A DNA stretch of 36,814 nt from Acidobacteriota bacterium (GTDB lineage: Bacteria; Acidobacteriota; Terriglobia; Acidiferrales; UBA7541). The position numbers were made by a program, and so were the translations under genes. Where the stretch lies: assembly GCA_021818865.1 (NCBI GenBank), contig JAKASX010000029.1, positions 1 through 36,814 on the forward strand, given 5' to 3'. This document shows positions 5,029-20,116 of the stretch, in pieces (positions within the stretch are counted from its first letter, which is position 1; every line of letters starts with the position of its first letter). The notes beneath the pieces were generated by a model. The model ran no database searches, was not told the origin of the DNA, and was given only the letters and a program-made list of their open reading frames with translations.

Positions 5029-6255
5029 ATGAACGTTGCCACGAACGTTCGCACGCGCCGCATTGTCCACGTCGACGTGGACGCCTTTTTCGCTTCGGTC
5101 GAGCAGGTGCTCGATCCGCGGCTGCGCGGGCGCCCCGTGCTGGTCGGCCGCGGCGTGGTGGCTTCGGCGAGTTACGAAGCGAAAGCGCGCGGAGTGCGCA
5201 CGGCGATGTCGTTTCGCCAGGCTCTGCGGCTCTGTCCGGACGCGGTGGTGGTTGCGGGCGCCTACGAGCACTACGCCGATTACGGCGCGCGCGTGCGGCG
5301 CATTCTGGAAAATTTCACGCCGTCGGTGGAATCCGCTTCGCTCGACGATTTCTATCTGGATTTCACCGGCGCCGAGCGTTTGTATCCGGATTGGCCGGCG
5401 GTGCTGCGGCGGCTGGCGCGTCGCGTCGAAAACGAAACCGGCCTCAGCGTTTCGGTGGGTGCGGCCACGTCGAAATTGATTGCGGCGATCGCTTCGCGGC
5501 TTGAGCGGCCGCGAGGTTTCTCCGTCATCGCGCCCGGCGACGAGCAGCGTTTTCTGGATCCGCTTCCGGTTGAAAAACTTCACGGCGTGGGCCGCGTGCA
5601 CGCACAGTCGCTCGGCGAGCGCGGCGTGCATACGGTCGGCGATTTGCGCCGGTTGCCGCTCGGCGTGCTGGTGGCCGCATTCGGGCCGGCCGTCGGGCGC
5701 CAATTGTGGGAACGCGCGCGCGGCCAGGATCCGCGCGCCGTGGAAGGGCTGGCCGTGCCGAAGTCGGTTTCGCGCGAAACGACGATTGCCGGCGGCACGA
5801 TCGATCTCGAATTGCTCGCCGGCCTTTTGGAATATCTGGCCGAGCGCGTTGCCTCGACGCTTCGCTCGATCGGCATGCAGGCGCGCGCCCTCACGCTGAA
5901 ATTCCGCTACGCCGATTCTTTTTCCGCCGCGCGCGAAGCTCGGCTCGATCCGCCGACGAACGACGAAAAGGCGCTACTCGCGCGAGCGATGGAACTTTTC
6001 GACACGCTCTATACGCGCCGCGTCGTGCTCGGCTGGATCGGCTTGAGCGTCGGGAGCCTCGAACCCGATCACCGGCAAAACGACCTGTTCGACGGGGAAT
6101 CGAACCGGCGCTGGTATCTGAATCGCGGCGTGGACGCGGTACGCGGGCGTTTCGGCTGGAACGCGGTGTTTTACGGCCGCGGCCTCGTGCTGCGCCGCCA
6201 TTACGCGACGAAACCCTCGGGCCTGGTGCTTTCGACGCCCTGTTTATCGCGGTAG
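5029..6255 (+). CDS. dinB: Y-family DNA polymerase (DinB/Pol IV-like)
   Basis: 408 residues. Translesion polymerase that copies past damaged bases with low fidelity. The palm carries HVDVDAFFASVEQ (metal ligand Asp16), ASYEAKARGVRTAM, and SLDDFYLDFTG at 104-114. In Pol IV the last motif is normally SIDEAYLD; here the second catalytic carboxylate is Asp107 in place of Glu. Thumb HhH motifs (LHGVGRVHAQSLGERGVHTVGDL) and the little-finger domain (KSVSRETT...) follow. QNDLF at 350-354 fits the beta-clamp binding consensus QL[SD]LF. ATG 5029 has GAGG at 5017-5020; an in-frame ATG at 4909 would precede the promoter. The dnaE gene begins 46 bases downstream. ImuB is the alternative, but the carboxylates and the clamp motif favour an active DinB. 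Confidence 0.92.
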   Translation: MNVATNVRTRRIVHVDVDAFFASVEQVLDPRLRGRPVLVGRGVVASASYEAKARGVRTAMSFRQALRLCPDAVVVAGAYEHYADYGARVRRILENFTPSVESASLDDFYLDFTGAERLYPDWPAVLRRLARRVENETGLSVSVGAATSKLIAAIASRLERPRGFSVIAPGDEQRFLDPLPVEKLHGVGRVHAQSLGERGVHTVGDLRRLPLGVLVAAFGPAVGRQLWERARGQDPRAVEGLAVPKSVSRETTIAGGTIDLELLAGLLEYLAERVASTLRSIGMQARALTLKFRYADSFSAAREARLDPPTNDEKALLARAMELFDTLYTRRVVLGWIGLSVGSLEPDHRQNDLFDGESNRRWYLNRGVDAVRGRFGWNAVFYGRGLVLRRHYATKPSGLVLSTPCLSR

Positions 6256-6301
6256 AGGACGCGCTGCGCGCACCCTCCGCGCGCCGCCGGGTGAATCGGC
6301 C

Positions 6302-9300
6302 ATGTTCGTTCATCTGCATTGCCACAGCCAATATTCGTTCCTGCGCGGCGTCGGGTCGCCCGCGGCGCTGGTGGCCGCGGCCGCGCGCCAGGCGATGCCC
6401 GCCGTCGCGCTCACCGATACCGACGGCCTCTACGCCGCGATTCCGTTCTATCAGGCGGCGCGCGAAGCGGGTATTCGTCCGGTTCTCGGCGCGGTATTGC
6501 CGGCAGGAGAGCCCGGCGAGGAATTTCCGCTCCTTTTGCTCGTCGCAAATAGGGAAGGCTACGCGAATCTGTGCCGCCTGGTGACGCGGCGCCAGCTCGA
6601 CGCGCGCCCGCTCCCGTGGGCTCTGCTCGATCTCGAACGCGAAGGCCTCATCGCGCTCTACGCGCCGGAACGAATCGCGCCGCCCGCGGCATCCGGCGCC
6701 AAATCCCGCGCAAGCGCTACCGCGTCGCCAATTCCGCAGCCGAAAAACCCAAAATCCCGCATCGCGCGTCTCAAGGAAATTTTCGGCAAAACTTTTTACC
6801 TCGAAACGCATCATTTTCCCGCGAGCGGCCGGGGTAACCTGCGCGAAGCCCTCGCGCTTTCCCGCTCTTTCGATCTCCCGCTCGCCGCGACGAACAACGT
6901 TCATTTCCTCGCGCCCGGCGAATTCCTCGATCATCGCGTGGTCAACGCGATTCGCACCGGCCGCCTGCTCAGCCGCATTGCGCCGCCGGAAATCGCCGAT
7001 GCCGAGGCTTGGTTCAAACCGTCGGGCGCGATGGAGCGCGCCTTCGCCGACCACCCCGAAGCGTTGCGCGCGACGCTCGAAATCGCCGAGCGCGCCGATT
7101 GCAAGCTGGAACTGGGAAAACCGATTTTGCCGTCGTTTCCGGTGCCCGAGGGCGAAACGCCGTTTTCCTATCTGTGGGAGCTGTGTTTCCGCGGCGCGCG
7201 CAAACGCTACCATCCGCCCGGTCCCGAAGTGATCGCGCGGCTCACGCGCGAGCTCGAAGTGATCGATCGCCTGGGCCTGGCGCCGTATTTCCTGCTCGTT
7301 TGGGATATCGTGCGTGAAGCGCGGCGCCGCGGCGTGCCCGCGGCGGGGCGCGGTTCGGCCGCCGGCTCGATGGTGAGCTATTGCCTGGGCATTTCGCGCG
7401 TCTGCCCGTTGCGCTGGGGGCTCTATTTCGAGCGCTTCCTCAACGAGCAGCGCGGCGACGTGCCGGATATCGATCTCGATCTGTGCGGCGCGCGCCGCGA
7501 TGAAATGCTCGACTACGTCTACGGGCGCTGGGGCGCCGACCACGTGGCGATGATCGGCAGTTTCATCACGATGCGCGCGCGGCTCGCCGTGCGCGAAGTG
7601 GCGAAGGTCTTCGGCGTGGCGCCGGGCGAGGTGAACCGCTTCACGCGCCGGCTGCCGCACCGGCCGGTGCGCGAAATCATGCAGGCGATTCGCGTGCTGC
7701 CGCAATGCCGCTCGCTGCCCGTGGACGAGGAGCCGTGGCGCACGATTCTCGACGTCGCATTGCGGCTCGACGAAACCCCGCGCCACATGGGCATCCATCC
7801 CTGTGGCACGGTGATCGCGCCGGGGCCGCTCGCCGCGCTCGTGCCGCTGGAAAAAGCGACGAAAGGCATCGTCGTCACGCAATACGACATGAACGCGGTG
7901 GAATCGCTCGGCCTGATCAAAATGGATCTGCTCGGCCAGCGCGGCCTCACCACCATTTCCCTGGCGCTCGCCGAAATCGAGCGCTCCGCCGGCCGCAAAA
8001 TCGATTTCGACGCGATTCCCGAGCGCGATTCCGCGACCTCCGCGATGCTCGCCGCGGGCCGCACGATGGGCGTTTTCCAGATCGAATCGCCGGGCCTGCG
8101 CGGCTTGCTGCGGCTGATGCGCGCCCGCACGATGGACCAGCTCTCGATCGCGCTCGCGATCATTCGCCCCGGCGCGTCCGAATACGGCGCCAAGGAAACC
8201 TTCGTGCGCCGCCTGCGCGGCCGGGAGCCGGTGCGCTACGCCCATCCTTCGCTCGAACCGATCCTCCGCGAAACGCTCGGCGTCTGCGTCTATCAGGAGC
8301 AGGTGATGCGCATCGCGCAGATCGCCGGTTCGCTCTCGCTCGCCGAAGCCGATCTGGTGCGCCGCTCCAGCGCGAAATTCGCCGACGAGCGCGAGCGCGC
8401 CCGCCTGCGCGCGAAATTCTTGAAAGCGGCGGCGCGGCTGGGCCTGGCGGGCGAATCGCTCGAAGATGTCTGGCAGATGGTGGAAAAATTCGCCGGCTTC
8501 GGTTTCTGCAAGGCCCACGCGGCCACCTACGCCGATCTCGCCTTTCGCATCGCCTGGCTGAAGGCGCATTATCCGGCGGAATTTCTCGCCGCGATGTGCA
8601 GCTCCGGCGCCGGCTTCTATCACGTCTCCGCCTACGTCGAGGAAGCCAAGCGCTGGGGCATTCCCGTGCTGCTGCCTTCGGTGAATCATTCCCGCGCCGA
8701 ATACAGCGTCGAGCCGCTCGCCGCGGGCGAAACCGGCGCAAACGGAAACGGCTCGGCGTCGGCGAAAAAAGCCCTGCGTATCGGCCTGATGCAGGTGAAG
8801 GGGCTCGGCGCGGAAACGATCGCCGCCATCCTCGCCGCGCGCCAGCGGGAAGGGAATTACCGCTCGATCGAGGATTTCCTGCGCCGCGTTCGCGCCGGCC
8901 GCGATGAACTCACCGCGCTCGTTCGCTGCGGCGCTTTCGACGATGTTCCCACCGGCGAAATTTCCGCCGCATCCGGCGGCGCGGATTCCGCGTCGCCGCA
9001 CGCGATCACGCGCCCCATGCGCCTTTGGCAGCTCCATCTCGCGCTCGCGCGTCGCGCGGCGGAGTCCGCCAAAGCGCCTGGCGCCCGCCCCGGCGATCTT
9101 TTCCCCGGTGCCGAACCCGCGGAATCCGCCGGCGATTCGGGCGAAATCCCGCTGCTCGCCGATTACGACCAGGAGCAGCACCTCGCCGCCGAACTCGAAT
9201 TGCTCGAAGTCGCCGCGAGCGGCCATCCGCTCGATGCGCTGCCGCGCAACGGCGAAATCTGGAGCACGGAACTCGCGCGCCACGTCGGCCGCCGCGTCCA

Positions 9301-9541
9301 GCTGCTCGGCTGGCTGGTGACGTTTCGCCCGGTCGGCACCAAGGATTACCGCAATATGATGTTCTTGACGCTCGAGGATCAGCGCGGCATTTACGAAGCC
9401 GTGCTGTTTCCCGACGCCTACGAGCGTTACGCCGGCCTGATTTTCGAAACGCGCCTGCTCCGCGTTTCCGGCCGCGTCGAAGACGAAGCCCAAATCCACT
9501 GCGACAAAATCGAGCGTCTGAGCGCGGGCTCCGGTTCGTGA
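6302..9541 (+). CDS. dnaE2: DNA polymerase III alpha-type subunit, DnaE2-like
   Basis: 1079 residues. C-family polymerase. An N-terminal PHP domain (HLHCHSQYSFLRG at 4-16) is followed by the palm with VPDIDLD (Asp389, Asp391) and KMDLLG (Asp542), the three catalytic aspartates. Helix-hairpin-helix (GLGAETIAAILAARQREG) and an OB-fold (VQLLGWLVTFRPVGTKDYRNMMFLTLEDQRG) close the protein. Replicative DnaE1 is usually about 1160 residues or longer, and the length plus FLRG and PDIDLD resemble the error-prone DnaE2 group. The linkage to a Y-family polymerase recalls the imuA-imuB-dnaE2 mutasome. A role in damage-induced synthesis is therefore likely but inferred; it could still be the only alpha subunit of this genome. 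Long antisense frames opposite it are artefacts of high GC. Confidence 0.85.
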   Translation: MFVHLHCHSQYSFLRGVGSPAALVAAAARQAMPAVALTDTDGLYAAIPFYQAAREAGIRPVLGAVLPAGEPGEEFPLLLLVANREGYANLCRLVTRRQLDARPLPWALLDLEREGLIALYAPERIAPPAASGAKSRASATASPIPQPKNPKSRIARLKEIFGKTFYLETHHFPASGRGNLREALALSRSFDLPLAATNNVHFLAPGEFLDHRVVNAIRTGRLLSRIAPPEIADAEAWFKPSGAMERAFADHPEALRATLEIAERADCKLELGKPILPSFPVPEGETPFSYLWELCFRGARKRYHPPGPEVIARLTRELEVIDRLGLAPYFLLVWDIVREARRRGVPAAGRGSAAGSMVSYCLGISRVCPLRWGLYFERFLNEQRGDVPDIDLDLCGARRDEMLDYVYGRWGADHVAMIGSFITMRARLAVREVAKVFGVAPGEVNRFTRRLPHRPVREIMQAIRVLPQCRSLPVDEEPWRTILDVALRLDETPRHMGIHPCGTVIAPGPLAALVPLEKATKGIVVTQYDMNAVESLGLIKMDLLGQRGLTTISLALAEIERSAGRKIDFDAIPERDSATSAMLAAGRTMGVFQIESPGLRGLLRLMRARTMDQLSIALAIIRPGASEYGAKETFVRRLRGREPVRYAHPSLEPILRETLGVCVYQEQVMRIAQIAGSLSLAEADLVRRSSAKFADERERARLRAKFLKAAARLGLAGESLEDVWQMVEKFAGFGFCKAHAATYADLAFRIAWLKAHYPAEFLAAMCSSGAGFYHVSAYVEEAKRWGIPVLLPSVNHSRAEYSVEPLAAGETGANGNGSASAKKALRIGLMQVKGLGAETIAAILAARQREGNYRSIEDFLRRVRAGRDELTALVRCGAFDDVPTGEISAASGGADSASPHAITRPMRLWQLHLALARRAAESAKAPGARPGDLFPGAEPAESAGDSGEIPLLADYDQEQHLAAELELLEVAASGHPLDALPRNGEIWSTELARHVGRRVQLLGWLVTFRPVGTKDYRNMMFLTLEDQRGIYEAVLFPDAYERYAGLIFETRLLRVSGRVEDEAQIHCDKIERLSAGSGS

Positions 9542-9601: not shown

Positions 9602-9859
9602 ATGGAAACGAAACTTTCCAGCAAGGGCCAGGTGGTGCTTCCGGGTCCGATTCGCCGCCGGTTGGGCCTTCAGCCCGGCGACGCTCTCGAAGCGAACGTG
9701 CGGGCCGGGCGCGTGGTGCTGACGCCGCGCCGGAAACGCATACGGAAGGCGTCCCTACGCACCGATCCCACGACGCATCTGCCGGTGCTTACGGCCGGCC
9801 CCGCCGCGCCGAAGCTGACCAGCAAGCAGGTGCGCGAAATCCTCACGGAATTTCCATGA
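9602..9859 (+). CDS. AbrB-family antitoxin (VapB-like)
   Basis: 85 residues. The N-terminal 45 residues form a SpoVT-AbrB swapped-hairpin DNA-binding domain: METKLSSKGQVVLPGPIRRRLGLQPGD followed by LEANVRAGRVVLTPRR. The C-terminal part, ending LTSKQVREILTEFP, would wrap the toxin. It neutralises the PIN toxin encoded directly downstream and probably represses the operon through the GTAAGA/TCTTAC palindrome touching its start codon. Its stop codon overlaps the toxin ATG by four bases (ATGA), which couples translation and helps keep antitoxin in excess. No strong ribosome-binding site is visible because the palindrome occupies that position. Confidence 0.9.
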   Translation: METKLSSKGQVVLPGPIRRRLGLQPGDALEANVRAGRVVLTPRRKRIRKASLRTDPTTHLPVLTAGPAAPKLTSKQVREILTEFP

Positions 9860-10266
9860 AGTATCTTCTGGACGTGAATGCTCTGGTCGCGCTCGGTTTT
9901 TTCGAGCACGAATTCCACCTGCGCGTCGCCCGCTGGGTCGCGCAAGTGTCGTCCAAGGAAGCTCCCGAACTGGCCACTTGCGCGATCACCGAACTCGGAT
10001 TCGTCCGAGTCCTCGCGCAGGCGCCGGGCTACGGAATCGCCGTTTCTCAGGCGCGCAGTCTTCTACTCCGCATGAAACAGCACGAACAGGTCAAGTTCGC
10101 GTTCTTTGCCGACGACCTCAACATCTCCCATCTGCCCGCATGGGTGAAAACTCCCAGGCAAACGACCGACGGCCATCTCGCCATGCTCGCCGCAGCCAAT
10201 GGCGCGGTACTGGCGACGCTCGACCGTAAAATTCCCCGCGCGTTCCTGATTCCCGCCGCCGGATAA
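9856..10266 (+). CDS. vapC: PIN-domain ribonuclease toxin (VapC-like)
   Basis: 136 residues. PIN-domain endoribonuclease, the toxin of the pair. The conserved acidic residues are in place: Asp6 in MKYLLDVNALVAL, Glu46 in ATCAITELGFVRVL, Asp105 in TTDGHLAMLAAANGA, and Asp123 in LATLDRKI. Together they bind the Mg2+ or Mn2+ used for RNA cleavage. VapC toxins typically cut tRNA or the sarcin-ricin loop; the target here is unknown. The length matches the TA_VapC_Mtb-type families of about 130-145 residues. The gene is intact, with no truncation. It lies just after the dnaE gene, with no integrase nearby. Confidence 0.92.
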   Translation: MKYLLDVNALVALGFFEHEFHLRVARWVAQVSSKEAPELATCAITELGFVRVLAQAPGYGIAVSQARSLLLRMKQHEQVKFAFFADDLNISHLPAWVKTPRQTTDGHLAMLAAANGAVLATLDRKIPRAFLIPAAG

Positions 10267-10458: not shown

Positions 10459-11484
10459 CTATCGCTTGAACTTCGGCGCGGGCTCGAAGAGCGACGCGGT
10501 GGAGGGTTCGGCGGCTGCCGGCGCGGTTTTCAGATAACGGTCGAGGCGCAGAATCTGGCGCGTGAGCGCCGGATTCCGTTCGGTCCATTCCGGCTCGGCG
10601 CTGGGCGATTCGAGCGAAGCGCGCATCGCGCCCATTTTCGAATCGAGATCGTCGAGGTAATGCAGCAGCACCGCTTCGCGAATCGCCGGCAAACACGGCG
10701 AGCCGAATTCCAGATGACCGTGATGGCTGGCGATCAAATGCTCGACGACGCGCGCGAGCGGAGCGGGGAAGCCCTCAATCGAATCCATCGCGCGGCGAAT
10801 CTGTTCGAGACCGAGCAAAATATGGCCGAGCAGCCGGCCTTCGGTGGAATACCCGGTTTCGCGCGTGTATTCGAGTTCGTCGATTTTGCCGACGTCGTGC
10901 AAAATCGCGCCGGTGAGCAGCAGGTCCAGGTCCACTTCTTTGCCGTAGTGCTCGGCCACCAGCCGGCACAATCCGCACAGGCTCACCACGTGCTCCACCA
11001 GGCCGCCGCGGTAGGCGTGATGCATCGTTTTCGCCGCCGGCGCCAGTTTCAGCCGCGCCGCAATCGCCGGGTCGTTCACCAGCGACTCCACCAGTTGCCG
11101 CAGGTAGGGATTGCCGATCGAGCCGGCAATCGCCGAAAGTTCCAGGTAAAGCCGGTCGATCTCTTCGGGCGAATGCGGAAAATAATCGCGCGGATCCACT
11201 TCCGATGGGTCGGCCTTGCGCAGCCGGTCGAGCTTCAGTTGCAGCCGGTTGCGATACGTTTCCGCGCGGCCCTGCACTTTCACGATGTCGTCGCGCCCGA
11301 TCGTCTGGATGACGGCGTCGAAGCCGTCCCACATGCGCGTTTCGATCGAGCCGGTGCGGTCGGAAAGCTCCAGGCGCAGGTACGGCTTTCCCTCGCGCGT
11401 TTGCAGCACTTCTTTTGCGGAAACGAGGAACGTCGAGGTAACCGGCTGATCAGGCTGTAAGTCAGCGACGAAAACCGATTTCAT
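10459..11484 (-). CDS. YhaM-like OB-fold/HD 3'-5' exoribonuclease
   Basis: 341 residues. An N-terminal OB-fold of about 95 residues (YLRLELSDRTGSIETRMWDG) is joined to an HD domain. The metal-binding set is visible: HHAYRGGLVEHV (155-166), ILHDVGKI (His196, Asp197), and ASHHG further on. This arrangement matches YhaM of Gram-positive bacteria, a 3'-5' exoribonuclease with some DNase activity, and many uncharacterised homologues. The C-terminal 30 residues are Ala/Pro-rich and probably disordered. It is the last gene of the rfaE2-mfd-surA-yhaM operon, with its start overlapping the previous stop by four bases. A role in RNA turnover or in degrading damaged nucleic acid next to Mfd is inference. 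Confidence 0.85.
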   Translation of the reverse strand: MKSVFVADLQPDQPVTSTFLVSAKEVLQTREGKPYLRLELSDRTGSIETRMWDGFDAVIQTIGRDDIVKVQGRAETYRNRLQLKLDRLRKADPSEVDPRDYFPHSPEEIDRLYLELSAIAGSIGNPYLRQLVESLVNDPAIAARLKLAPAAKTMHHAYRGGLVEHVVSLCGLCRLVAEHYGKEVDLDLLLTGAILHDVGKIDELEYTRETGYSTEGRLLGHILLGLEQIRRAMDSIEGFPAPLARVVEHLIASHHGHLEFGSPCLPAIREAVLLHYLDDLDSKMGAMRASLESPSAEPEWTERNPALTRQILRLDRYLKTAPAAAEPSTASLFEPAPKFKR

Positions 11485-12587
11485 CGCTCGCCCTTTTTCT
11501 TTTTCTTCTTGCCTTTCGAATCGAACTGGCTGGCGGACACTTCCGTGATGGCGGTCGAGGGAACCGCGTCGGTATCCACGTAGCCGGGCTGGATGGTGAT
11601 GTAGCTCTCCTTGCGGAGCTGTTCGAGAAACTTGCGCAGCGCCGGGCCGATCTTCTGCATGTAGATGGCGTTTTCGATGTCGGTTTCCACCGCGTCTATC
11701 GGCTGGATGCCGGCCTGATAGTGCTGCTCCACCTGAAACAACTCGTATTCACCGCTGATTTTCATCACCGGCGTCATCTGGTCGTGCTGGAGCGCGAAAA
11801 CGGCGTCCTCGATCGGCTTCTGCAGCATGCCACGCGTAAAATCGCCCAGCGTTCCGCCGGCCTGCGCCGTGGTGCCCTGCGAATAAATTTTCGCCAGTTG
11901 CCCGAAATCGTCGCCGTTCCCGACGCGCGTGCGGATCGTATCCATCTGCTTCTTGATCGCCGCAACCTGGGCAGGCGTTTTGCCCTGGATCGACATGAAG
12001 ATGCCGCGCAGTACCACGGACTCCGGCCGGTTGAACTTCGCCTTGTGCGCTTCGTAATACTTTTGGATCTGTTCGTGATCGATCTGGATGGTCCCGCCGA
12101 CGTCCTGCTGAATCAGCTTCTGCGTCAGCAGTTGGTTCTTGATCTCCTCCTTGTACGTATTCCAGTTCATTCCGGAGGCTTCGACGGCGCGCCGCAGCGC
12201 GCCCATGGAATCCAGGTGGTATTGGATGCGCGTCTTGTCGAGTTCCTTCACCATGTCGATATCGACGTTGATCCCTTCATCCTTGGCCTGTTCGACGAGC
12301 AGATCCTGATCGATCAGGTCGCGCAGCACGTTTTTCGCCCGGGTGTTGTAACGCGCGTCGAGCTCGGCCGGCGTGCAAGTGGGGCAATCGTGCTTGATCT
12401 CTTCCTTCAGCGCCTCTTGCGCGGCCGTGTATTGATGGCTTGTGATGATGTCGTCGTTGACGCGGGCGATGATTTTTTCCAGCACCACGCCCTTCGGCGG
12501 GGGTACCTCCTGGGCGCCCAGTCCCACCGTTGCACCGAAAAACAGGATTGCGGCAGCCGCCGCGATGCGCGTATTCATACCCCGCAT
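11481..12587 (-). CDS. SurA-like periplasmic peptidyl-prolyl isomerase
   Basis: 368 residues. A signal peptide (hydrophobic core AAAAAILFFGATVGLG, cleavage near residue 25) is followed by a SurA_N-type helical chaperone domain (IIARVNDDIITSHQ...) and one parvulin domain at about 185-290 (ESVVLRGIFMS ... AGGTLGDFTRGMLQKPIEDAVF). It would help fold outer-membrane proteins in the periplasm. E. coli SurA has two parvulin domains; this protein has one, as in many non-proteobacterial SurA/PrsA-type chaperones. The C-terminus is a Lys-rich stretch (KGKKKKKKGER). The start at 12587 is supported by GGAGG five bases upstream, which lies at the end of mfd. The gap to the mfd stop is one base, so translation is probably coupled. 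Confidence 0.85.
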   Translation of the reverse strand: MRGMNTRIAAAAAILFFGATVGLGAQEVPPPKGVVLEKIIARVNDDIITSHQYTAAQEALKEEIKHDCPTCTPAELDARYNTRAKNVLRDLIDQDLLVEQAKDEGINVDIDMVKELDKTRIQYHLDSMGALRRAVEASGMNWNTYKEEIKNQLLTQKLIQQDVGGTIQIDHEQIQKYYEAHKAKFNRPESVVLRGIFMSIQGKTPAQVAAIKKQMDTIRTRVGNGDDFGQLAKIYSQGTTAQAGGTLGDFTRGMLQKPIEDAVFALQHDQMTPVMKISGEYELFQVEQHYQAGIQPIDAVETDIENAIYMQKIGPALRKFLEQLRKESYITIQPGYVDTDAVPSTAITEVSASQFDSKGKKKKKKGER

Positions 12588-12588
12588 T

Positions 12589-15500
12589 TTAGCCTCCCGA
12601 TTCCAGCTCCTGCAATACGCTTGTGGCCGCGGCCGCCGGGCTGCCGGTTTCCGGCTTCCATTCGATCCAGAGCACGCCAGACGGATCGAGGCTCGCCCCG
12701 CGCCGCGACCTCACCAGCCGCACCAAGCGTTCCGGCCGGACCGGCGTATCGCCGTGAAAGTGCAGCGCTAGGCGATGGTTGCGCCGCTCGACGCCGGAAA
12801 TCAGCAGCCGCTCGCAGGCGGATTTCAGCATCGCGTATTCCACCAGATTCATCACCGATCGCGGAGGCGGCCCGAAACGGTCTTCGAGTTCGCGCAGCGC
12901 ATCCTGTCGTTCGCGCTCGGTGGCGATCGAGGCGATCCGCTTGTACGCGCGCAGCCGCGCGTTTTCGCCGGGAATGTAGCCCGAGGGAATGCGCACGTCG
13001 AGGCCCAGATTCAGCGTCACGCGCACTTCCGGCCGCGAAGCTTCGCCCTTCAGCCGCGCCACCGCCTGTTCGAGCATCTGGCAATACAGATCGAATCCCA
13101 CCGCGTCCACGTGGCCGTGCTGCTCGCGCCCCAGCAGATTGCCCGCGCCGCGCAATTCCAGGTCGAGCGCGGCGATGCGGAATCCGGCCCCGAGCTCGCT
13201 GAATTCCTTGAGCGCGGCCAGCCGCTGCCGCGCTTCCGAGGAAAGCGCCGCCGCCGTCGGCACCAGCAGATATGCATACGCCCGCTCTTCCGACCGTCCC
13301 ACGCGCCCGCGCAGCTGATAAAGCTCGGCCAGGCCGAAGCGGTCGGCGCGATTGATCAGGATGGTGTTTGCTCGCGGGATATCGAGCCCGTTTTCGATGA
13401 TCGTCGTCGAAACCAGAATATCGGCTTCGTGACGGATGAATTTCAGCATCACTTCTTCCAGCTGATGCTCGTTCATCTGTCCGTGCCCCACCACGATTCG
13501 CGCGCGCGGCACCAGCTTGTGAATCTTGTCGGCGAACGTCGCAATCGTTTCCACGCGGTTGTGCACGAAAAACACCTGCCCGCCGCGGTCCATCTCGCGT
13601 TCGACCGCCCGCCGCACCAGCTCCTCGTCGAAAGGCGCCACGATCGTCTGAATCGCCAGCCGTCCGCGTGGTGGCGTTTCGATCGTCGACATATCGCGCA
13701 ACCCGGCGAGCGACATATGCAGCGTGCGCGGAATCGGCGTCGCCGACATCGTCAGCACGTCCACGTTCCGCCGTAGCTCCTTCAGCCGCTCCTTGTGCGA
13801 AACGCCGAACCGCTGCTCTTCATCCACCACCAGCAGCCCCAGATCGTGGAAGCGGACGTCCCGCGAGAGCAGCCGGTGCGTTCCGATGAGGATGTCGATT
13901 TTTCCCGCTTCCAGATCCTCCAGTATGCGTTTCGCCTCGCGCCGGCTGCGCAACCGGCTGAGCATTTCGATCCGCACGGGAAACGCGGCCATGCGCCGGC
14001 GAAACGTCTCGTAATGCTGGAAAACGAGCACCGTCGTCGGCGCGAGCACGGCCGCCTGCCGCCCGTCGGCGACCACCTTGAACGCGGCGCGCACCGCGAC
14101 TTCCGTTTTGCCGTACCCCACGTCGCCGCACAGCAGCCGGTCCATCGGCAGCGGCGATTCCAGATCGCGTTTCACGTCTTCGATCGCGCGCTGCTGGTCG
14201 GGCGTCTCGTCGTAGGGAAAGGAATCCTCGAGTTCGCGTTGCCACGGCGTATCGCCGGGATAGCGATGGCCTTCGGCGGTTTTGCGCTGCGCGTAAAGCT
14301 GCAGCAGCTTTTCCGCCAAGTCGTCCACCGACCGCTTCACCCGCTTTTTTCGCGCCGTCCACACCGTCCCGCCGAGCTTGTCGAGCGGAGGCTTCGCTTC
14401 GCCGATCGTGCGGTATTTCTGCACCAGGTCCACGCGGGCCAGCGGCACGTAAAGCCGCGCGTCGTCGGCGTAGCGAAGCAGCATGAATTCGCCGCTCGAT
14501 CCATCCGCCGAAATCTGCCGCAATCCTTCGAACGCGCCGATGCCGTGGTCCACGTGCACTACGAAATCGCCCGGTTTCAAGTCGGAAAAATCGCTCGAAA
14601 ATCCCGCGGCGCGCCGCTTCCGTGGCCGCTCGATTTCCGCGTCGAAAAGGTCCGCGTAACCGTAGATAATCAGGTCGAGCTCGGGAAACCGCACGCCTTC
14701 TGCCAGCGGAATGCGCGCCAGGACCACCCCCGCCGCGCTTTCCTCGCCCGTTTCGGCCAGCCGCGCGGCGCCGGGCCCCTGCTCGAATTCGCCCAGCCGG
14801 CACGGCGTTTCATATTCGTGGCACAGATCCATCATCCGTTCGAGTTCGCCCGCGCTCGCCGCGGAAATCACCACCGCTTCGCCCGCCTCTAGCCGCGCGC
14901 GCAGCTCCGCCATGAACGGGGCCACGTTTCCGTGGTACCGCGCGGTCGGCTGGCTCGAAAGGACCGCTTGCGGCAACTCGCCCACGGCCAGCCGCACGAG
15001 TTCCAGCCGCCTCACGCCGTCGAGTGTGCGTTCCCACTCATTGAGGGGCATCGAATAGACGGTGGGAGCCGCCGGCGCGCTCGCTTCGTCGTGGTGCCGC
15101 GCTTCATTCCACGATTCTTCCATCCGCTCCCATAGCTTTGTCGCCGCGTCGGCGATCGCCGTCGGCTCGTCCACCACCACCAGAGGATCGGTAAGCAGAT
15201 CGAAAATCGTTTTCCGCGGAGGGTCGAGCGCCGCCGCGCGAAATTCCCATCCCGGTAGCAGCAGATCGGGTCCGCTGTGGATTTCCTCCTCCGCCGTCGC
15301 CACGCCCACCGCCGCCATTTGCGCCGCCGGCAGCGGGCATTCGCCGATCGGCGGCAAGACGACGCGTTCGAGCGGCCCAATCGAGCGCTGCGTCTCCGCG
15401 TCGAATTCCCGCAGCGATTCCACCGTGTCGCCAAAGAGCTCGATGCGCACCGGGCGCTTCGCGTCCGGTGGAAAAACGTCCACGATGCCGCCGCGCACCG

Positions 15501-16056
15501 CGAATTGTCCCGGCATTTCCGCCGTGTCCTGCCGGTCGTAGCCCGCGCGAGCCAGATGCTCCACCAACTCTTCGAGCGGAATCGACTGATCGCGCATTAC
15601 CTCCCGCGCGAGCCCGCGATAAAATTCGGCGTCGCGCGTTCGCGCCATCGCCGCGCCCACCGGCGCGATCACCGCGCGCGCCTGTCCCGAAGCGATCTGC
15701 CAGAGCGCCATCGCGCGTTCGCTCGAAATTTCCGGATGCGGGGAAAGTTTTTGGTAGGGAAGAACGTCGCTCGCCGGCAGCGTCACCACCTCGCCTGCCG
15801 CGCGTCCCGCGAGGATGCGATAGAAATACCGCAGCGGCTCCGCGAGGCGTTCGGCCCGGTCATTCGATTCCACCAGCAGCACCACCGGCCGGCCGATCGT
15901 CGCCGCCGCGTGCGCCGTCACCAGCACCTTCGCCGCGTCGGTCAGCCCAGCGAGCGTCGCTTGGCCGCGTTCCTCGCGCGCCGCGCCCAGCGCGCCGCTC
16001 ACCGCGCGGTCGCGTCCCACGCGGGCGAACCATTCGGCGAGCAAGGGCAGAATCAT
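12589..16056 (-). CDS. mfd: transcription-repair coupling factor
   Basis: 1155 residues, the usual full length. Mfd releases RNA polymerase stalled at DNA lesions and recruits UvrA. The domain order is intact: UvrB-like N-terminal module (about 1-330), the RNA polymerase interaction domain ([17 protein letters not shown], near residue 500), and the translocase, with Walker [10 protein letters not shown] near residues 642-650, the DEEQ box near 744, the helicase motif [12 protein letters not shown], and the TRG/relay region. The C-terminal module follows. It overlaps the rfaE2 stop by four bases and sits one base before the surA-like gene. The mfd-surA pairing is often seen in acidobacteria and deltaproteobacteria; this statement is from general knowledge and was not checked here. 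Confidence 0.97.
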
Positions 16057-16529
16057 GGCTCTTTGCGCCGAATCCGCCGGACGATTTCCGTGGTCGAATA
16101 CCCAGGCTCGATCTGGACGCGCACCACGCGTCCACCTGCCGCTTCCACTTCCTCACGCCCGACGATCTCGCTGGGTCCCCAGTCCCCGCCCTTCACCAGA
16201 ACGTCCGGCAGAATTTCCGCGATCAGCCGTTGCGGCGTCGACTCATCGAAAATCACCACCCAATCCACAGCCTCGAGCGACGCCAGCACCTCGGCTCGCT
16301 CGTCTTCGGAAACGAGCGGCCGGCCGGCTCCTTTCATCTCTCGCACGCTGCGATCGGAATTAATGGCGACGATCAGCGCGTCTCCGAGCGAGCGCGCTTC
16401 TTCCAGGGAACGGATATGGCCGGGATGCAGAAGGTCGAAACACCCGTTTGTGAACGCAATTCGCCGTCCGGCGCGTCGTGCCGCCGCTACTTGTTCGCGG
16501 AGTTGGCTTTCCCTGACGACCTGTCCCAA
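16053..16529 (-). CDS. rfaE2: D-glycero-beta-D-manno-heptose 1-phosphate adenylyltransferase
   Basis: 158 residues. Nucleotidyltransferase that adds ADP to heptose 1-phosphate for lipopolysaccharide inner core, corresponding to the C-terminal half of Hld[21 protein letters not shown] holds the HxGH motif (here HPGH), and the ISTTEI-type motif appears as [10 protein letters not shown] near the C-terminus. It is a stand-alone enzyme and no HldE kinase half lies nearby. It heads the minus-strand operon that continues into mfd. TAGAAT on the minus strand (16572-16567) is a possible -10 box, though without a matching -35. A fused or separate RfaE kinase should exist elsewhere in the genome. Confidence 0.92.
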
Positions 16530-16592: not shown

Positions 16593-18146
16593 TTGATCGC
16601 CCGCTCCAGGTTGCTTCGCATCGCGTTCGCCCTGTTGCTGGTCGTTGCCGGTGCGTTGGCGCTCGCCCGCACGCGCCTGCCGGAGCGCAAAATCATCCTC
16701 GGCGACGCCTGCCACACACCCGCTCGCCTCATCGAGCCGGCGAGCGACCCAACCGGCCGCGTCGCGCTCGTGTTCCACGGCCTCGCTGCGAGCGCCGCGA
16801 TCATGGAGCCGCTTGGCGAGTCGCTCTCCGCGGCTGGCTGGCGTGTCTATCTGCTCGATCTCGCCGGGCATGGCCGCAGCCTGGAGCCGTTCTCCTACGC
16901 CAACGTGGAACGCTGCGCCCGCGGCGCCACGCAATATCTGCTGCGCGACGCCCGCATCGCGCCCGCAAAAACCGTCCTCGTGGGCCATTCGTTGGGTGCT
17001 GCCGCCGCGGTTCGCGTGGCGGCCGATGTTCCCGTCGCCGGTACCATCGCGATTTCTCCCGCACTTCTCGCCGTCCCGCGCCGCGCGCCCGCGAATCTTC
17101 TGATTCTCGCCGGCCAATTCGATTTCGGCGTGGTGAAGCGCGAAGCGCGGGCGCTTTTGCGCCTCGCCGGCGGCGATCGCGATTCTCCGGGCGATTTCGC
17201 CGCCGGCCGCGCGGCCCGGTTTCACGTGGTTTCCGGTGAATTGCACGGCACCATGGTGCTCGATCCGCGCGTCTGGCGCATGTCCGTCTCATGGGCGAAT
17301 CGCGCGGTAAATTCCGGCCACGCTCAGCCGGTCCCCGCGATCGCCACGCGTCGCCCGCTCGAAGCGCTTCTCGCCGGTTGCGCGCTGATTCTCAGCCTCG
17401 TTTTGCTGGTCGGGCCTTGGGAGTCCTTGCTGGCCCGATTCGCGTCTCTTCAGCCGTCTAGCGTTTCCGCCGCGCCCGGCACGCTCGCATCCGCAGCCAC
17501 CGAATGCGGCTTCGGATGGCGCCGCGCGCTGATCGTTTGGGTAATCGGCTCCTTTTTCGCCGTATCGCTCGTTGCGCTCACGCGTGCGCCCTACGTTTTG
17601 CGTCCCGTCGAACTCGCGGACGGCGACTGGGCCGCGCTCGTCGCTCTCGTTACCGGTCTCGTGCTCGCGTTTCTTTCCTGGAACCGCGCTCGTCCCTGGC
17701 TTCGCATCGAGCCGCGCGGCGAACTCGTCGCCGCTCTCGCAGGCGTTTCCATCGTGGTCGCGTTCGCCTTTGCGCTTCGGCCTGAATTCGTCGAAGCGTC
17801 GCTGATGCCTGCTCGCTTGTGGCGCTGGGCCGTGCTCGCCGTTTTCACCTGGCCCTATTTTCTTGCCGAGGAAGTGGCGCTTGGCCCTCCCTCGGGCGCG
17901 CGGCGTTTCGCGCTGTTTCTCGCGTTGCGCGCGATCGTGTGGCTGGCGCAGGCGTTTGCTCTTCTCGTTTTCTGGCGCTGGGGATTGTTGCTCGTTCTGA
18001 TTGTGTTCGGACTCGGCGCGGTTTCCGTTGGCCAGCGCCTCGCCGCCGATGTGCTCCGGCGTCGCGGCATGGCGCCCGCATCGGCTGCGCTCTTCGACGC
18101 GATCCTGGCCGCGGGCATGCTCGCGCTGGTTCTTCCGCTCCGGTGA
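16593..18146 (+). CDS. alpha/beta hydrolase fused to a polytopic membrane domain
   Basis: 517 residues from a TTG start preceded by GCGAGGA. A first hydrophobic segment (LLRIAFALLLVVAGALALA) anchors the protein or exports the hydrolase. The alpha/beta-hydrolase fold follows: VALVFHGLAASAAIM (oxyanion loop), DLAGHGRS, and the nucleophile elbow VGHSLGAAAAV. GQFDFGV supplies the likely acid and GELHGTMV the His, so the Ser-Asp-His triad looks complete. After about residue 255 come roughly seven hydrophobic helices (for example CALILSLVLLVGPW, ALIVWVIGSFFAVSLVAL, WGLLLVLIVFGLGAVSV) of unknown family. The substrate is unknown; a lipid or isoprenoid ester is conceivable because a geranylgeranyl-reductase-like gene starts six bases downstream. 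No upstream in-frame ATG offers a better start. Confidence 0.75.
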   Translation: MIARSRLLRIAFALLLVVAGALALARTRLPERKIILGDACHTPARLIEPASDPTGRVALVFHGLAASAAIMEPLGESLSAAGWRVYLLDLAGHGRSLEPFSYANVERCARGATQYLLRDARIAPAKTVLVGHSLGAAAAVRVAADVPVAGTIAISPALLAVPRRAPANLLILAGQFDFGVVKREARALLRLAGGDRDSPGDFAAGRAARFHVVSGELHGTMVLDPRVWRMSVSWANRAVNSGHAQPVPAIATRRPLEALLAGCALILSLVLLVGPWESLLARFASLQPSSVSAAPGTLASAATECGFGWRRALIVWVIGSFFAVSLVALTRAPYVLRPVELADGDWAALVALVTGLVLAFLSWNRARPWLRIEPRGELVAALAGVSIVVAFAFALRPEFVEASLMPARLWRWAVLAVFTWPYFLAEEVALGPPSGARRFALFLALRAIVWLAQAFALLVFWRWGLLLVLIVFGLGAVSVGQRLAADVLRRRGMAPASAALFDAILAAGMLALVLPLR

Positions 18147-18152
18147 ACGCTC

Positions 18153-19343
18153 GTGGCAAAATTCAACGGTGCGATGACTCCGCGTGAAATCCTCATCATC
18201 GGTGGTGGTCCCGCGGGCGCCGTCTGCGCCGAGCGCGCCGCTCGCGCCGGACTCGGCGTCACGCTGCTCGACGATCATCTGGCCTGGGAAAAGCCGTGCG
18301 GCGGCGGATTGACGCACAAGGCGCTTCGCGCATATCCCTTTCTGCTCGATGGGCCGCAGCGCAAAAAAATCGTTCGCCAAATTGAGCTAAAGGCTGGTGA
18401 TGACCCTCCGGCAAAAATAGCTCTCGATTCTCCGCTCGTCATTTACTCGCGCGAAACACTCAACGGTTTGCTCCTCGATCGCGCCGAGCGCGCCGGCTGC
18501 CGCATTCGCCTTGCTCGCGCCGTCTCGTTCGATGTTTCTTCCGCGCGGCCCATGATCTGCCTGGCCGACGGCACCCAACTGCAAGCCGATTTCGTCGTCC
18601 TCGCCGCCGGTGCGCGCAACCGTCTGTTGCCCGCCGCGTCCAAACCCGCTCCGGCTCCGCTCGCTCCAGCCGATTTCGAGCAGACCGCCGGCTACTACGT
18701 GCCCGCCGAATCGGACATTTTGAAAATCAAATTTCTTCCGGAATTTCGCGGCTATCTGTGGTCGTTTCCGCGTGCGGACCATCTCTCGGTCGGCATTTGC
18801 GGCAAGCTGGACGAATCGTCAACGGCCACGTTGCGCCGTCATCTCGACGCCTATATGGACGAAGAGGGTCTTTCGCGTGAGGGTGCGCGTTTTTACAGCC
18901 ATCTGCTGCCATCGCCCCGCGCGCAAACCCTCCGCTCGCGGCCGATTCTCGGTGCGAATTGGGCGCTCGCCGGCGACGCCGCCGCCATGGTGGATTCGAT
19001 CACCGGGGAGGGAATTTTCTACGCGATGCGTTCGGGCGAACTTTTGGGCGAATCGCTCGCCGCGGGCCATCCGGAAACGTATCCGCGCCGCCTGCGCGCG
19101 GAGTTCGGCTCGGAACTCGAGCGCGCCGCCGGGCTCGCTCCGCGATTCTACCGGGAGCGCTTCCTGGGAGCCGCGATCACCGTTCGCACCATCGATTTCG
19201 CCCGGCGCAGCCCCACCTTTCGCCGCCTGCTCGCCGGATTGTTCACCGGCTCGCAGGATTACCGCACGCTGCCTTTGCGCCTCTGGGCGCAACTGCCCAT
19301 CAGCCTCGCCGAAATGGCGTGGAGCACTCTCGCCGGTCGCTAG
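18153..19343 (+). CDS. geranylgeranyl-reductase-family FAD oxidoreductase
   Basis: 396 residues. A Rossmann FAD-binding motif IIGGGPAGAVCAERAARAG at about 15-33 is followed by KPCGGGLTHKAL (47-58), the signature of the geranylgeranyl reductase family (GGR, ChlP, digeranylgeranylglycerophospholipid reductase), and by GDAAAMVDSITGEGIFYAMRSGELL, the second FAD contact. Such enzymes saturate isoprenoid double bonds; many bacterial homologues act on menaquinone or polyprenyl chains, or on unknown substrates. The start is GTG 18153. ATG 18174 (MTPREIL) would also give the complete domain. It forms an operon with the hydrolase upstream and ends in a 4-base convergent overlap with rsmA. Confidence 0.85.
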   Translation: MAKFNGAMTPREILIIGGGPAGAVCAERAARAGLGVTLLDDHLAWEKPCGGGLTHKALRAYPFLLDGPQRKKIVRQIELKAGDDPPAKIALDSPLVIYSRETLNGLLLDRAERAGCRIRLARAVSFDVSSARPMICLADGTQLQADFVVLAAGARNRLLPAASKPAPAPLAPADFEQTAGYYVPAESDILKIKFLPEFRGYLWSFPRADHLSVGICGKLDESSTATLRRHLDAYMDEEGLSREGARFYSHLLPSPRAQTLRSRPILGANWALAGDAAAMVDSITGEGIFYAMRSGELLGESLAAGHPETYPRRLRAEFGSELERAAGLAPRFYRERFLGAAITVRTIDFARRSPTFRRLLAGLFTGSQDYRTLPLRLWAQLPISLAEMAWSTLAGR

Positions 19344-20116
19344 CGTTCCAGCCAGGCGAACAACTCGGCGATCTGCGCGACGCTCATCTCTTCCGCTCGC
19401 GCCGTCGCGCTCAACCGCATCGCCCCGAGCGCCTCCCGTACCTTTTCCGCGCCGTAGCGTCCCTTCAAATTATTCGCCAGCGTCTTGCGCTTCTGCGCGA
19501 AACACGCCGAAGCAAACTCCAGAAATCCCTCTTCATCCTCGATTCCCAGTCGCGCTCTTTCGCCCGGCGGCGTCATTCGCACCAACGCCGAATCCACTTT
19601 CGGCGCCGGCCGAAACGCTCCGGGCGGAATTCGCAGCAGAATTTCCGGCCGCGTATAAAACTGCGCCAGCACCGAAAGCCATCCGTAATCGCGGCTGCGC
19701 GGCCGCGCCGCCAGCCGCTCCGCCACTTCGAGTTGTATCACCACGTCAATTTCCTCGATCCGGTCCGCGCACGCGAAAAGTTTCCGCAGAATCGGCGAAG
19801 TGATGTAGTAGGGAAGCGAGCCGTAAACGCGAAACCGCGCCCCTCCGATTTTCGCGAGGTCGAGCGCCAAAACGTCTCCCTCGATAATTTCGACGTTCAA
19901 ACCCGCCGACGTTTCGCGCAATTTCCCGAGGAGCCGCGCGTCCAGTTCGATCGCAACGACGCGCCCGGCGCGCCCAGCGAGTTCGCGCGTCATTTCCCCG
20001 CGCCCCGCGCCGATTTCGAGCCACACCTGTTCCTTTGCCGGCGCGATTTGCTCCAGAATCCGCCCGCGCCAGCTCGCGTCCGCCAAAAAATGTTGTCCCA
20101 GCCGTTCCGGCGTCAT
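19340..20116 (-). CDS. rsmA: 16S rRNA dimethyladenosine transferase
   Basis: 258 residues. RsmA/KsgA dimethylates the two adjacent adenosines (A1518 and A1519 in E. coli numbering) near the 3' end of 16S rRNA during 30S maturation. GQHFLAD (7-13), the SAM-binding EIGAGRGEMT (34-43), and the C-terminal FAQKRKTLANNLKG are all characteristic. The catalytic motif IV, usually NLPY, reads SLPYY at 100-104, so Asn is replaced by Ser. Its ATG is 92 bases from the divergent glgA start. It ends tail to tail with the flavoprotein gene, the two TAG stops overlapping in CTAG. Confidence 0.95.
   Translation of the reverse strand: MTPERLGQHFLADASWRGRILEQIAPAKEQVWLEIGAGRGEMTRELAGRAGRVVAIELDARLLGKLRETSAGLNVEIIEGDVLALDLAKIGGARFRVYGSLPYYITSPILRKLFACADRIEEIDVVIQLEVAERLAARPRSRDYGWLSVLAQFYTRPEILLRIPPGAFRPAPKVDSALVRMTPPGERARLGIEDEEGFLEFASACFAQKRKTLANNLKGRYGAEKVREALGAMRLSATARAEEMSVAQIAELFAWLER

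Follow-up and report, generated by a model that had tools for sequence, protein, structure and literature searches.

The window analyzed here is a stretch of 36,814 nucleotides from the genome of a soil acidobacterium (contig JAKASX010000029.1 of assembly GCA_021818865.1). Two of its genes, which lie one behind the other on the plus strand, are the subject of this report. The upstream gene encodes a fusion of an alpha/beta hydrolase with a C-terminal membrane domain, and the downstream gene encodes a flavin adenine dinucleotide (FAD) protein related to geranylgeranyl reductases (GGRs). The coordinates of these genes, of their domains and of their neighbors are summarized in Table 1. A sequence-only reading of this stretch had proposed that the two proteins process an isoprenoid or another lipid at the membrane.

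Hydrolase domain of the fusion protein

The TTG codon at 16593 is preceded by a GAGGA motif resembling a ribosome-binding site, and this codon and the bases immediately upstream of it are identical in the sister genome G003. The ratio of nonsynonymous to synonymous substitution rates (dN/dS), as calculated against G003, is approximately 0.20 for the hydrolase gene, 0.21 for its membrane part and approximately 0.13 for the flavoprotein gene. Both are therefore real genes. The hydrolase domain is matched by the Pfam families Hydrolase_4 (PF12146; residues 57-163, 52.8 bits against a cut-off of 27), Abhydrolase_1 (PF00561; residues 59-147, 37.9 bits against a cut-off of 25.8) and PF12697 (31.1 bits against a cut-off of 26.3). 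When 27 sequences are aligned, Gly131-His132-Ser133-x-Gly135 (GHS(M/L)G; GHSLG in the window protein, with Ser133 as the nucleophile) and His218 are invariant, and the acid of the triad at position 177 is Asp in 16 sequences and Glu in 11. The AlphaFold2 model of the full-length protein, which was built from 14 sequences with a mean predicted local distance difference test score (pLDDT) of 74.9, consists at its N-terminal side of a helix (residues 4-26) and the hydrolase fold. These results bear out the earlier description of a Ser-His-Asp alpha/beta hydrolase that is anchored at its N terminus and fused to a membrane domain, with the qualification that the acid is either Asp or Glu.

Comparison of the hydrolase part with solved structures by VIA-align places feruloyl esterases and lipases on top, with Z up to 24.2, and by sequence, a monoacylglycerol lipase is the closest solved protein. 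Esterase/lipase matches are also obtained when the PHROGs database is searched with the fusion protein. Monoacylglycerol lipases and feruloyl esterases are similar to the window hydrolase in the fold and in the Ser-Asp/Glu-His order, but the listed chains of these enzymes cover only the hydrolase domain, not the membrane domain. As judged from these similarities, the hydrolase is a member of the alpha/beta hydrolase superfamily and is predicted to be a serine esterase or lipase.

GGR-like flavoprotein

The PCGGGLT signature assigned to the downstream protein is found at residues 48-54, when the residues are numbered from the GTG codon at 18153. The GTG codon that matches this one in G003 meets an in-frame stop, and the ATG codon at 18174 is kept in G003 and aligns with the starts of the homologues. 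Therefore, the gap between the hydrolase and flavoprotein genes is most likely 27 bases, instead of the six bases that were first proposed. The active-site Cys (C49 in KPCGGG) and the YxWxFP motif (YLWSFP, residues 201-206 in the window protein) are conserved in all 16 aligned flavoprotein sequences. According to a passage of PMC12004948, this Cys (Cys47 of Sulfolobus acidocaldarius GGR) and the substrate-positioning YxWxFP are key for the catalysis by GGR.

The window flavoprotein and the members of the GGR superfamily (TIGR02032; archaeal GGR, ChlP/BchP, MenJ and the Bsr sterol C-24 reductase) have the FAD fold, the Cys residue of the CGG loop and YxWxFP in common, but the window flavoprotein remains under the cut-off of TIGR02032, which a relative from the phylum (L185) passes with 161.6 bits. 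It is far under the specific models BchP, MenJ, QhpG and ChlP (for example, 70.9 bits against a cut-off of 700 for the MenJ menaquinone reductase model NF045655), and it does not pass NF008519, which we take to be the model for CbrA, with 26.4 bits against a cut-off of 303. Among solved structures, an archaeal digeranylgeranylglycerophospholipid reductase is the closest relative (98.8 bits), with flavin halogenases next, and a search of PHROGs gives one weak match to a ribonucleotide reductase family. By these scores, the flavoprotein appears to be a divergent relative of GGRs rather than a filed member of TIGR02032. Its two catalytic hallmarks, the active-site Cys and YxWxFP, make isoprenoid reduction a fair expectation for it. 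A hydrophobic signal is not seen by eye at the start of the flavoprotein, and the protein should therefore be cytosolic.

Bacterial relatives of GGR include a sterol C-24 reductase from Myxococcota, as mentioned in a passage of PMC12004948, and CbrA from E. coli, a GGR-like protein that saturates the alpha-isoprene unit of a carrier lipid, as described in part of PMC8469651. CbrA of E. coli K-12 and the window flavoprotein have the KPCGG and EGIxYA motifs in common and are aligned by hhalign over approximately 280 columns with 98.3%, but they are only approximately 20% identical, and YxWxFP is not found in CbrA. Orthology of the flavoprotein to CbrA was considered and is unsupported, because FixC is equally similar (65.5 for FixC and 59.1 for CbrA in hmmsearch, and 97.9% and 98.3%, respectively, in hhalign).

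Conservation of the gene pair

The window belongs to genus g1 of family f1, for which 61 genomes, including that of the window, were examined. The fusion gene, either whole or as a part at a contig end, is detected in 37 of them (E ≤ 1e-8), and the flavoprotein gene is detected in 56 (E ≤ 1e-30). Of the 37 genomes with the fusion, 33 have the flavoprotein gene as the next gene on that strand, at a distance between the match ends of −4 to 600 bases (at most 123 bases in 30 of these pairs), and in a 34th genome (G045, locus L009) the start of a flavoprotein gene is found behind the fusion, where the contig ends. The flavoprotein gene also follows the fusion in the only f3 locus (L063) and in all four f9 loci, one of them with a partial match. 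In G426, which belongs to another class, the two genes are arranged in the same order and on the same strand, 26 bases apart, at a different genomic site. Thus, the two genes are adjacent not only in the genome of the window, but in 34 of the 37 f1 genomes with the fusion, in f3 and f9, and in G426.

Remnants of the C-terminal region of the fusion are present just upstream of the flavoprotein gene in G007 (G007:C84:2012-2110, 33 residues; L132) and G019 (G019:C30:13074-13154, 27 residues; L133). The fusion has therefore been lost by decay in place. An opposite-strand frame of L133 (3264-4118), which by eye resembles a different hydrolase, is located close to the remnant.

The membrane profile finds a match in 67 of 299 genomes of the class, all from f1, f5 or f9, and the f3 locus L063 was found through the flavoprotein search. 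The open frames around the class matches are 293-983 amino acids long, except for one of 155 amino acids at a contig start and the remnant of G019 (65 amino acids), and no clear case of a standalone membrane domain is found among them. Of 396 genomes of the phylum Acidobacteriota, 47 pass 1e-15 with the whole-protein profile and 59 pass 1e-60 with the flavoprotein profile. Outside the class, the range of the match extends well into the membrane part only in G426, G308, G323, G336, G398 and G558. Absences in these searches are weak, because nine (membrane profile in the class), three (whole-protein profile in the phylum) and four (flavoprotein profile in the phylum) candidates were scored per genome. 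Outside Acidobacteriota, the search for the fusion was confined to plasmids and to a pattern scan near two peptide patterns; the membrane domain of L079 has no match among 72,556 plasmid records. The 13 homologous loci L079-L091 are from metagenome-assembled genomes titled 'Candidatus Acidiferrales', 'Acidobacteria' (one of them gp2) or 'Acidobacteriota', and Acidiferrales is an order in the class Terriglobia. In the open-licence literature of PubMed Central, as judged by titles and the starts of abstracts, no paper on the hydrolase-flavoprotein pair is found. PADLOC gives no anti-phage defense match for either protein at E 1e-5.

Gene order around the pair

The genes in the homologous loci were called by a program that had been trained on the window genes, and their starts are approximate; the fusion was missed or cut in some f5 and f9 loci and was recovered by tblastn. 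The gene at 16053..16529, which we take to be hldE, is divergent from the fusion gene and adjoins it. This arrangement is conserved in 27 of the 30 f1 loci that were read (either hldE or mfd is present in 29), in all seven f5 loci, in three of four f9 loci (the fourth being truncated where its contig begins) and in the f3 locus. The fusion remains at hldE in f5, where the flavoprotein gene is located elsewhere or is not found. Conversely, the flavoprotein gene is located at hldE without the fusion in the f2 and f6 loci (L062 and L067). Genes that by eye look like tgt and uvrA lie in the stretch with the G426 pair, and three f41 loci (L192, L197 and L200) have the flavoprotein gene next to this tgt-like gene but lack the fusion.

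Table 1. Features of the window in and around the hydrolase-flavoprotein gene pair
Feature	Position	Strand	Remarks
Alpha/beta serine hydrolase with C-terminal eight-helix membrane domain	16593..18146	+	TTG start; 517 amino acids (codons)
N-terminal membrane anchor, residues 4-26	16602..16670	+	AlphaFold2 helix; hydropathy peak at residues 13-21
Hydrolase domain, residues ~30-240, with S133/D177/H218	16680..17312	+	Pfam, invariant columns, VIA-align
Membrane domain, eight helices, Glu 427, no Pfam family	17346..18143	+	
GGR-like FAD protein (PCGGGLT, YLWSFP)	18174..19343	+	GTG start at 18153 unlikely
hldE/rfaE2-type nucleotidyltransferase, divergent neighbor of the hydrolase gene	16053..16529	-	CTP_transf_like, 77.3 bits
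mfd, next in the conserved divergent block	12589..16056	-	TRCF and CarD_TRCF_RID domains
surA-like periplasmic chaperone, next in the block	11481..12587	-	SurA_N and rotamase domains
rRNA adenine dimethylase gene, convergent to the flavoprotein gene	19340-20116		Right flank

The simplest history of these loci would start from an ancestral block, with surA-mfd-hldE on one side and hydrolase-flavoprotein-hemL running divergently from it, whose genes were repeatedly lost or moved, and would include a second placing of the pair. The two genes are linked but separable, because genes have repeatedly been lost from this old block, part of which is related to the envelope. Such a history raises the possibility that the two genes are neighbors by descent only and have no common pathway. 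The hydrolase, flavoprotein and hemL genes come and go independently beside hldE-mfd in the class, and the f5 loci with only the fusion at hldE and the f2 and f6 loci with only the flavoprotein gene there are consistent with this explanation. It accounts less readily for the same order and strand of the two genes at another site in another class (G426), and for the short distances (−4 to 123 bases) between the match ends in 30 of the 33 f1 pairs. Common descent without common function is a strong contender, although we consider it somewhat less probable than the interpretation given below.

Among 17 loci from other families of the class, eight (L062-L064, L066, L067, L069, L072 and L074) have the hemL gene, which encodes glutamate-1-semialdehyde aminomutase, directly behind the flavoprotein gene and on its strand. 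The two genes, as called, overlap by four bases in five of these loci (L062:3216-5716, L063:2304-3790, L066:7416-9838, L072:8219-10668 and L074:7123-9542), and the three HemL proteins that were tested pass the cut-off of TIGR00713. Translational coupling of the flavoprotein to tetrapyrrole synthesis is possible from this arrangement, and the flavoprotein might then act in tetrapyrrole metabolism together with HemL, with the hydrolase as a bystander. This role is very unlikely, because hemL is not detected near the flavoprotein gene in the window or in the 13 f1 loci L079-L091, is not seen by eye in L033-L061, and because a missing FAD-dependent step is not evident: a HemY-type protoporphyrinogen oxidase is present in 57 of the 61 f1 genomes. 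The presence of this enzyme is also the reason why a role of the flavoprotein as a replacement protoporphyrinogen oxidase, which the coupling to hemL had brought up, was rejected.

Several other genes were observed around the fusion or the flavoprotein gene in relatives. A gene for a protein of 342 amino acids beside the G426 pair (L172:3950-4978) matches the ScyD/ScyE family model with 88 bits against a cut-off of 80, and genes that are alike by eye flank the flavoprotein gene in f41 (L192 and L200). In f16 (L173, L175, L176 and L177), the locus contains the fusion without the flavoprotein gene and with a neighbor that resembles a metallophosphatase by eye; a DUF3052-like neighbor is also seen by eye in L173, L175 and L177. 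In three f5 loci (L124, L126 and L131), the fusion is followed by same-strand genes that resemble M16 peptidases by eye. Farther upstream in the window (5029-9541), two successive genes, by eye a Y-family polymerase-like gene and then a DnaE-like gene with a PHP-type start, resemble a mutagenesis cassette, and two small overlapping genes, AbrB-like and PIN-like by eye (9602-10266), possibly form a toxin-antitoxin pair.

Membrane domain of the fusion protein

The AlphaFold2 model of the fusion protein contains eight helices of at least 16 residues beyond residue 253. The sequence-only reading is therefore right on the fusion to membrane helices and slightly wrong on their number, which it gave as about seven. 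When the hydrolase domain is placed outside, the predicted inside loops contain 1.85-2.69 Lys/Arg residues on average and the outside loops contain 0.08-2.08. This distribution mostly fits the positive-inside rule and suggests that the hydrolase domain is located in the periplasm. The 46 aligned rows, among them near-duplicates and members of other classes, all have Glu 427 (window numbering). The motif around this residue is EEVALG in the window protein and [DE]ExxxR in seven of eight rows of f3, f5 and f9; the Arg residue of this motif is replaced by Gly in f1.

Over the membrane domain, no Pfam family reaches its cut-off in 11 fusion proteins, in agreement with the earlier statement that this domain is of no recognized family, and PF02517 (CPBP/ABI) is not listed for any of the 11 with an E limit of 1 or 5. 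A sequence search of the PDB with the membrane profile gives no match up to E 10. At the sequence level, the domain thus matches no known unrelated family, and profile-profile comparison with CAAX proteases of related genomes finds no similarity; the hint of a known fold is structural. The membrane domain was modeled alone from 13 sequences, with that of L079 as the first, and this model has a pLDDT of 74.7 and a predicted template modeling score (pTM) of 0.74. When it is compared with solved structures by VIA-align, SpdC (6u0o_A) is ranked first with Z 8.7, a root mean square deviation of 5.1 and 189 aligned residues, followed by Z 5.7 in the next row, where Z below approximately 13 may reflect only a common arrangement in helical bundles. 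The SpdC-like (CAAX-protease) fold is therefore no more than a hint, and we use it only as a lead. By helix count and aligned ranges, helices 2-8 of the model may correspond to SpdC beginning at residue 10, and Glu 427 would therefore fall in the EE helix of Rce1; the helix numbers behind this register are assumed by us. That no fold matches clearly should not be taken as a sign of a new one.

SpdC is described in part of PMC5854430 as an Abi-domain protein with eight predicted helices, so that it resembles the window membrane domain in this number as well as being its top fold match. A passage of PMC7387801 states that SpdC lacks the key catalytic residues, and SagB-SpdC is presented as a peptidoglycan release complex in a passage of PMC10811503. 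According to parts of the latter two papers, SpdC and LnsB (of LnsA-LnsB) are CPBP-like proteins without catalytic residues, each of which acts with a second protein. The window protein differs from them in that its partner is a fused alpha/beta hydrolase and in that no sequence-profile similarity to CPBP proteins is found.

The [DE]ExxxR-like motif in f3, f5 and f9 and the first rank of SpdC in VIA-align raise the question of whether the membrane domain could itself be active as a CAAX-type intramembrane protease, with the hydrolase fused to it. In Rce1 and DidK, two His residues follow the Glu motif (motifs 2 and 3; residue numbers as given in the part of PMC10811503 that covers them), whereas the window protein has no His residue after Glu 427, although some f5 members carry a His residue further on. 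Together with the Arg-to-Gly replacement in f1, the absence of PF02517 from the 11 fusion proteins and an hhalign value of 0.1%, obtained with working positive controls, this difference makes an active protease extremely unlikely. Membership of the membrane domain in the CPBP (CAAX-protease) family, which the same motif had suggested, was rejected as well, because neither hhalign nor the PDB search detects profile similarity and SpdC is retrieved only by VIA-align.

Possible functions of the pair

The hydrolase gene is divergent from hldE and near surA, and its product is predicted to face the periplasm. These features suggest that the hydrolase acts on an envelope lipid. The presence of the pair at two genomic sites argues for some common purpose of the two genes. 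In contrast, the two genes are often found apart and their products are predicted to lie on opposite sides of the membrane, which speaks against two steps that must follow one another.

If the two proteins acted one after the other on a single isoprenoid or ester-linked membrane lipid, the hydrolase would release or trim a prenyl-linked lipid after its saturation by the flavoprotein. The conservation of the pairing in several families and at two genomic sites and the GGR hallmarks of the flavoprotein are consistent with this scheme, as are the action of GGR-like CbrA on a carrier lipid (part of PMC8469651) and the release of peptidoglycan by SagB-SpdC (part of PMC10811503). However, the active sites are predicted, from the charges and by eye, to be located on opposite faces of the membrane, so that the lipid would need to flip, each gene also occurs alone, and CbrA is no closer to the window flavoprotein than FixC is. 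Such a scheme is rather unlikely. Accordingly, the original proposal of isoprenoid processing is sustained only as far as the flavoprotein is concerned, by its active-site Cys and YxWxFP, and not for a shared lipid, because of the opposite faces, the occurrence of each gene alone and the company of hemL.

Since a common purpose is argued for and obligatory steps are argued against, we prefer to interpret the pair as two co-inherited envelope-lipid enzymes rather than as mere neighbors or as parts of a single pathway, and we give this interpretation slightly less than an even chance. One enzyme would be a serine esterase embedded in the membrane, and the other would be an isoprenoid reductase of the cytosol. 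The genes, their domains, the catalytic motifs and the conservation of the pairing are established, and the topology, the chemistry and the role in the envelope are inferred. The fusion protein would be a serine esterase or lipase, the catalytic domain of which faces the periplasm and is held by the N-terminal anchor. The eight-helix membrane domain probably holds or presents a lipid substrate, as has been proposed for the non-catalytic LnsB and SpdC. The GGR-related FAD enzyme would reduce double bonds of an isoprenoid chain in the cytosol. The two genes are probably co-expressed, without strict mutual dependence of their products.

Several results weigh against this interpretation. As regards the pairing, the fusion is not accompanied by a nearby flavoprotein gene in any of seven f5, four f16 and one f41 loci, and the flavoprotein gene is not detected at E 1e-30 in three genomes of genus g2 that contain the fusion (G005, G017 and G027, the last of which is 59% complete). 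The flavoprotein gene occurs without the fusion in 23 of the 61 f1 genomes, including G007 and G019 with their C-terminal remnants, one further genome has neither gene, and a single ancestral gene order could explain the pairing within the class. As regards the flavoprotein, its score with TIGR02032, which is nevertheless its closest model, is 136.7 bits and is under the cut-off of 158.8. As regards the membrane domain, one predicted outside loop (2.08 Lys/Arg) is approximately as positive as the inside loops and does not discriminate between the two orientations, and the Z value for SpdC is under the level that VIA-align calls safe for helical bundles. In addition, a plain Foldseek search with the membrane-domain model gives nothing better than E 0.82, and hhalign of this domain against 29 CPBP proteins of relatives gives at most 0.1% with several settings, where a reversed alignment also gives 0.1% and the positive controls give 98.4% and 99.9%.

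A more specific scheme, which we consider quite unlikely, is an acidobacterial envelope module for a polyprenyl-linked lipid. Like CbrA of E. coli, the flavoprotein would saturate isoprene units of the carrier, working from the inside, and the hydrolase, mounted on a dead scaffold with the CAAX-protease fold, would cut an ester of the same lipid, or free its cargo, outside. The fusion protein would then correspond, in a single chain, to the two-protein partnerships SagB-SpdC or LnsA-LnsB.

Biological implications

The components of the pair, which we interpret as co-inherited envelope-lipid enzymes, are in or near known superfamilies; the novelty lies in how a serine hydrolase is combined with this membrane domain and in the genes that accompany the fusion. 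Non-catalytic membrane partners resembling CAAX proteases are few, and the fusion to a serine hydrolase, if the similarity is true, would reveal the partner and the side of the membrane that is used. Bacterial relatives of GGR keep showing unexpected substrates, such as sterols and a carrier lipid, and the recurring company of the flavoprotein gene (hldE, the hydrolase gene and hemL) can guide the search for its substrate.

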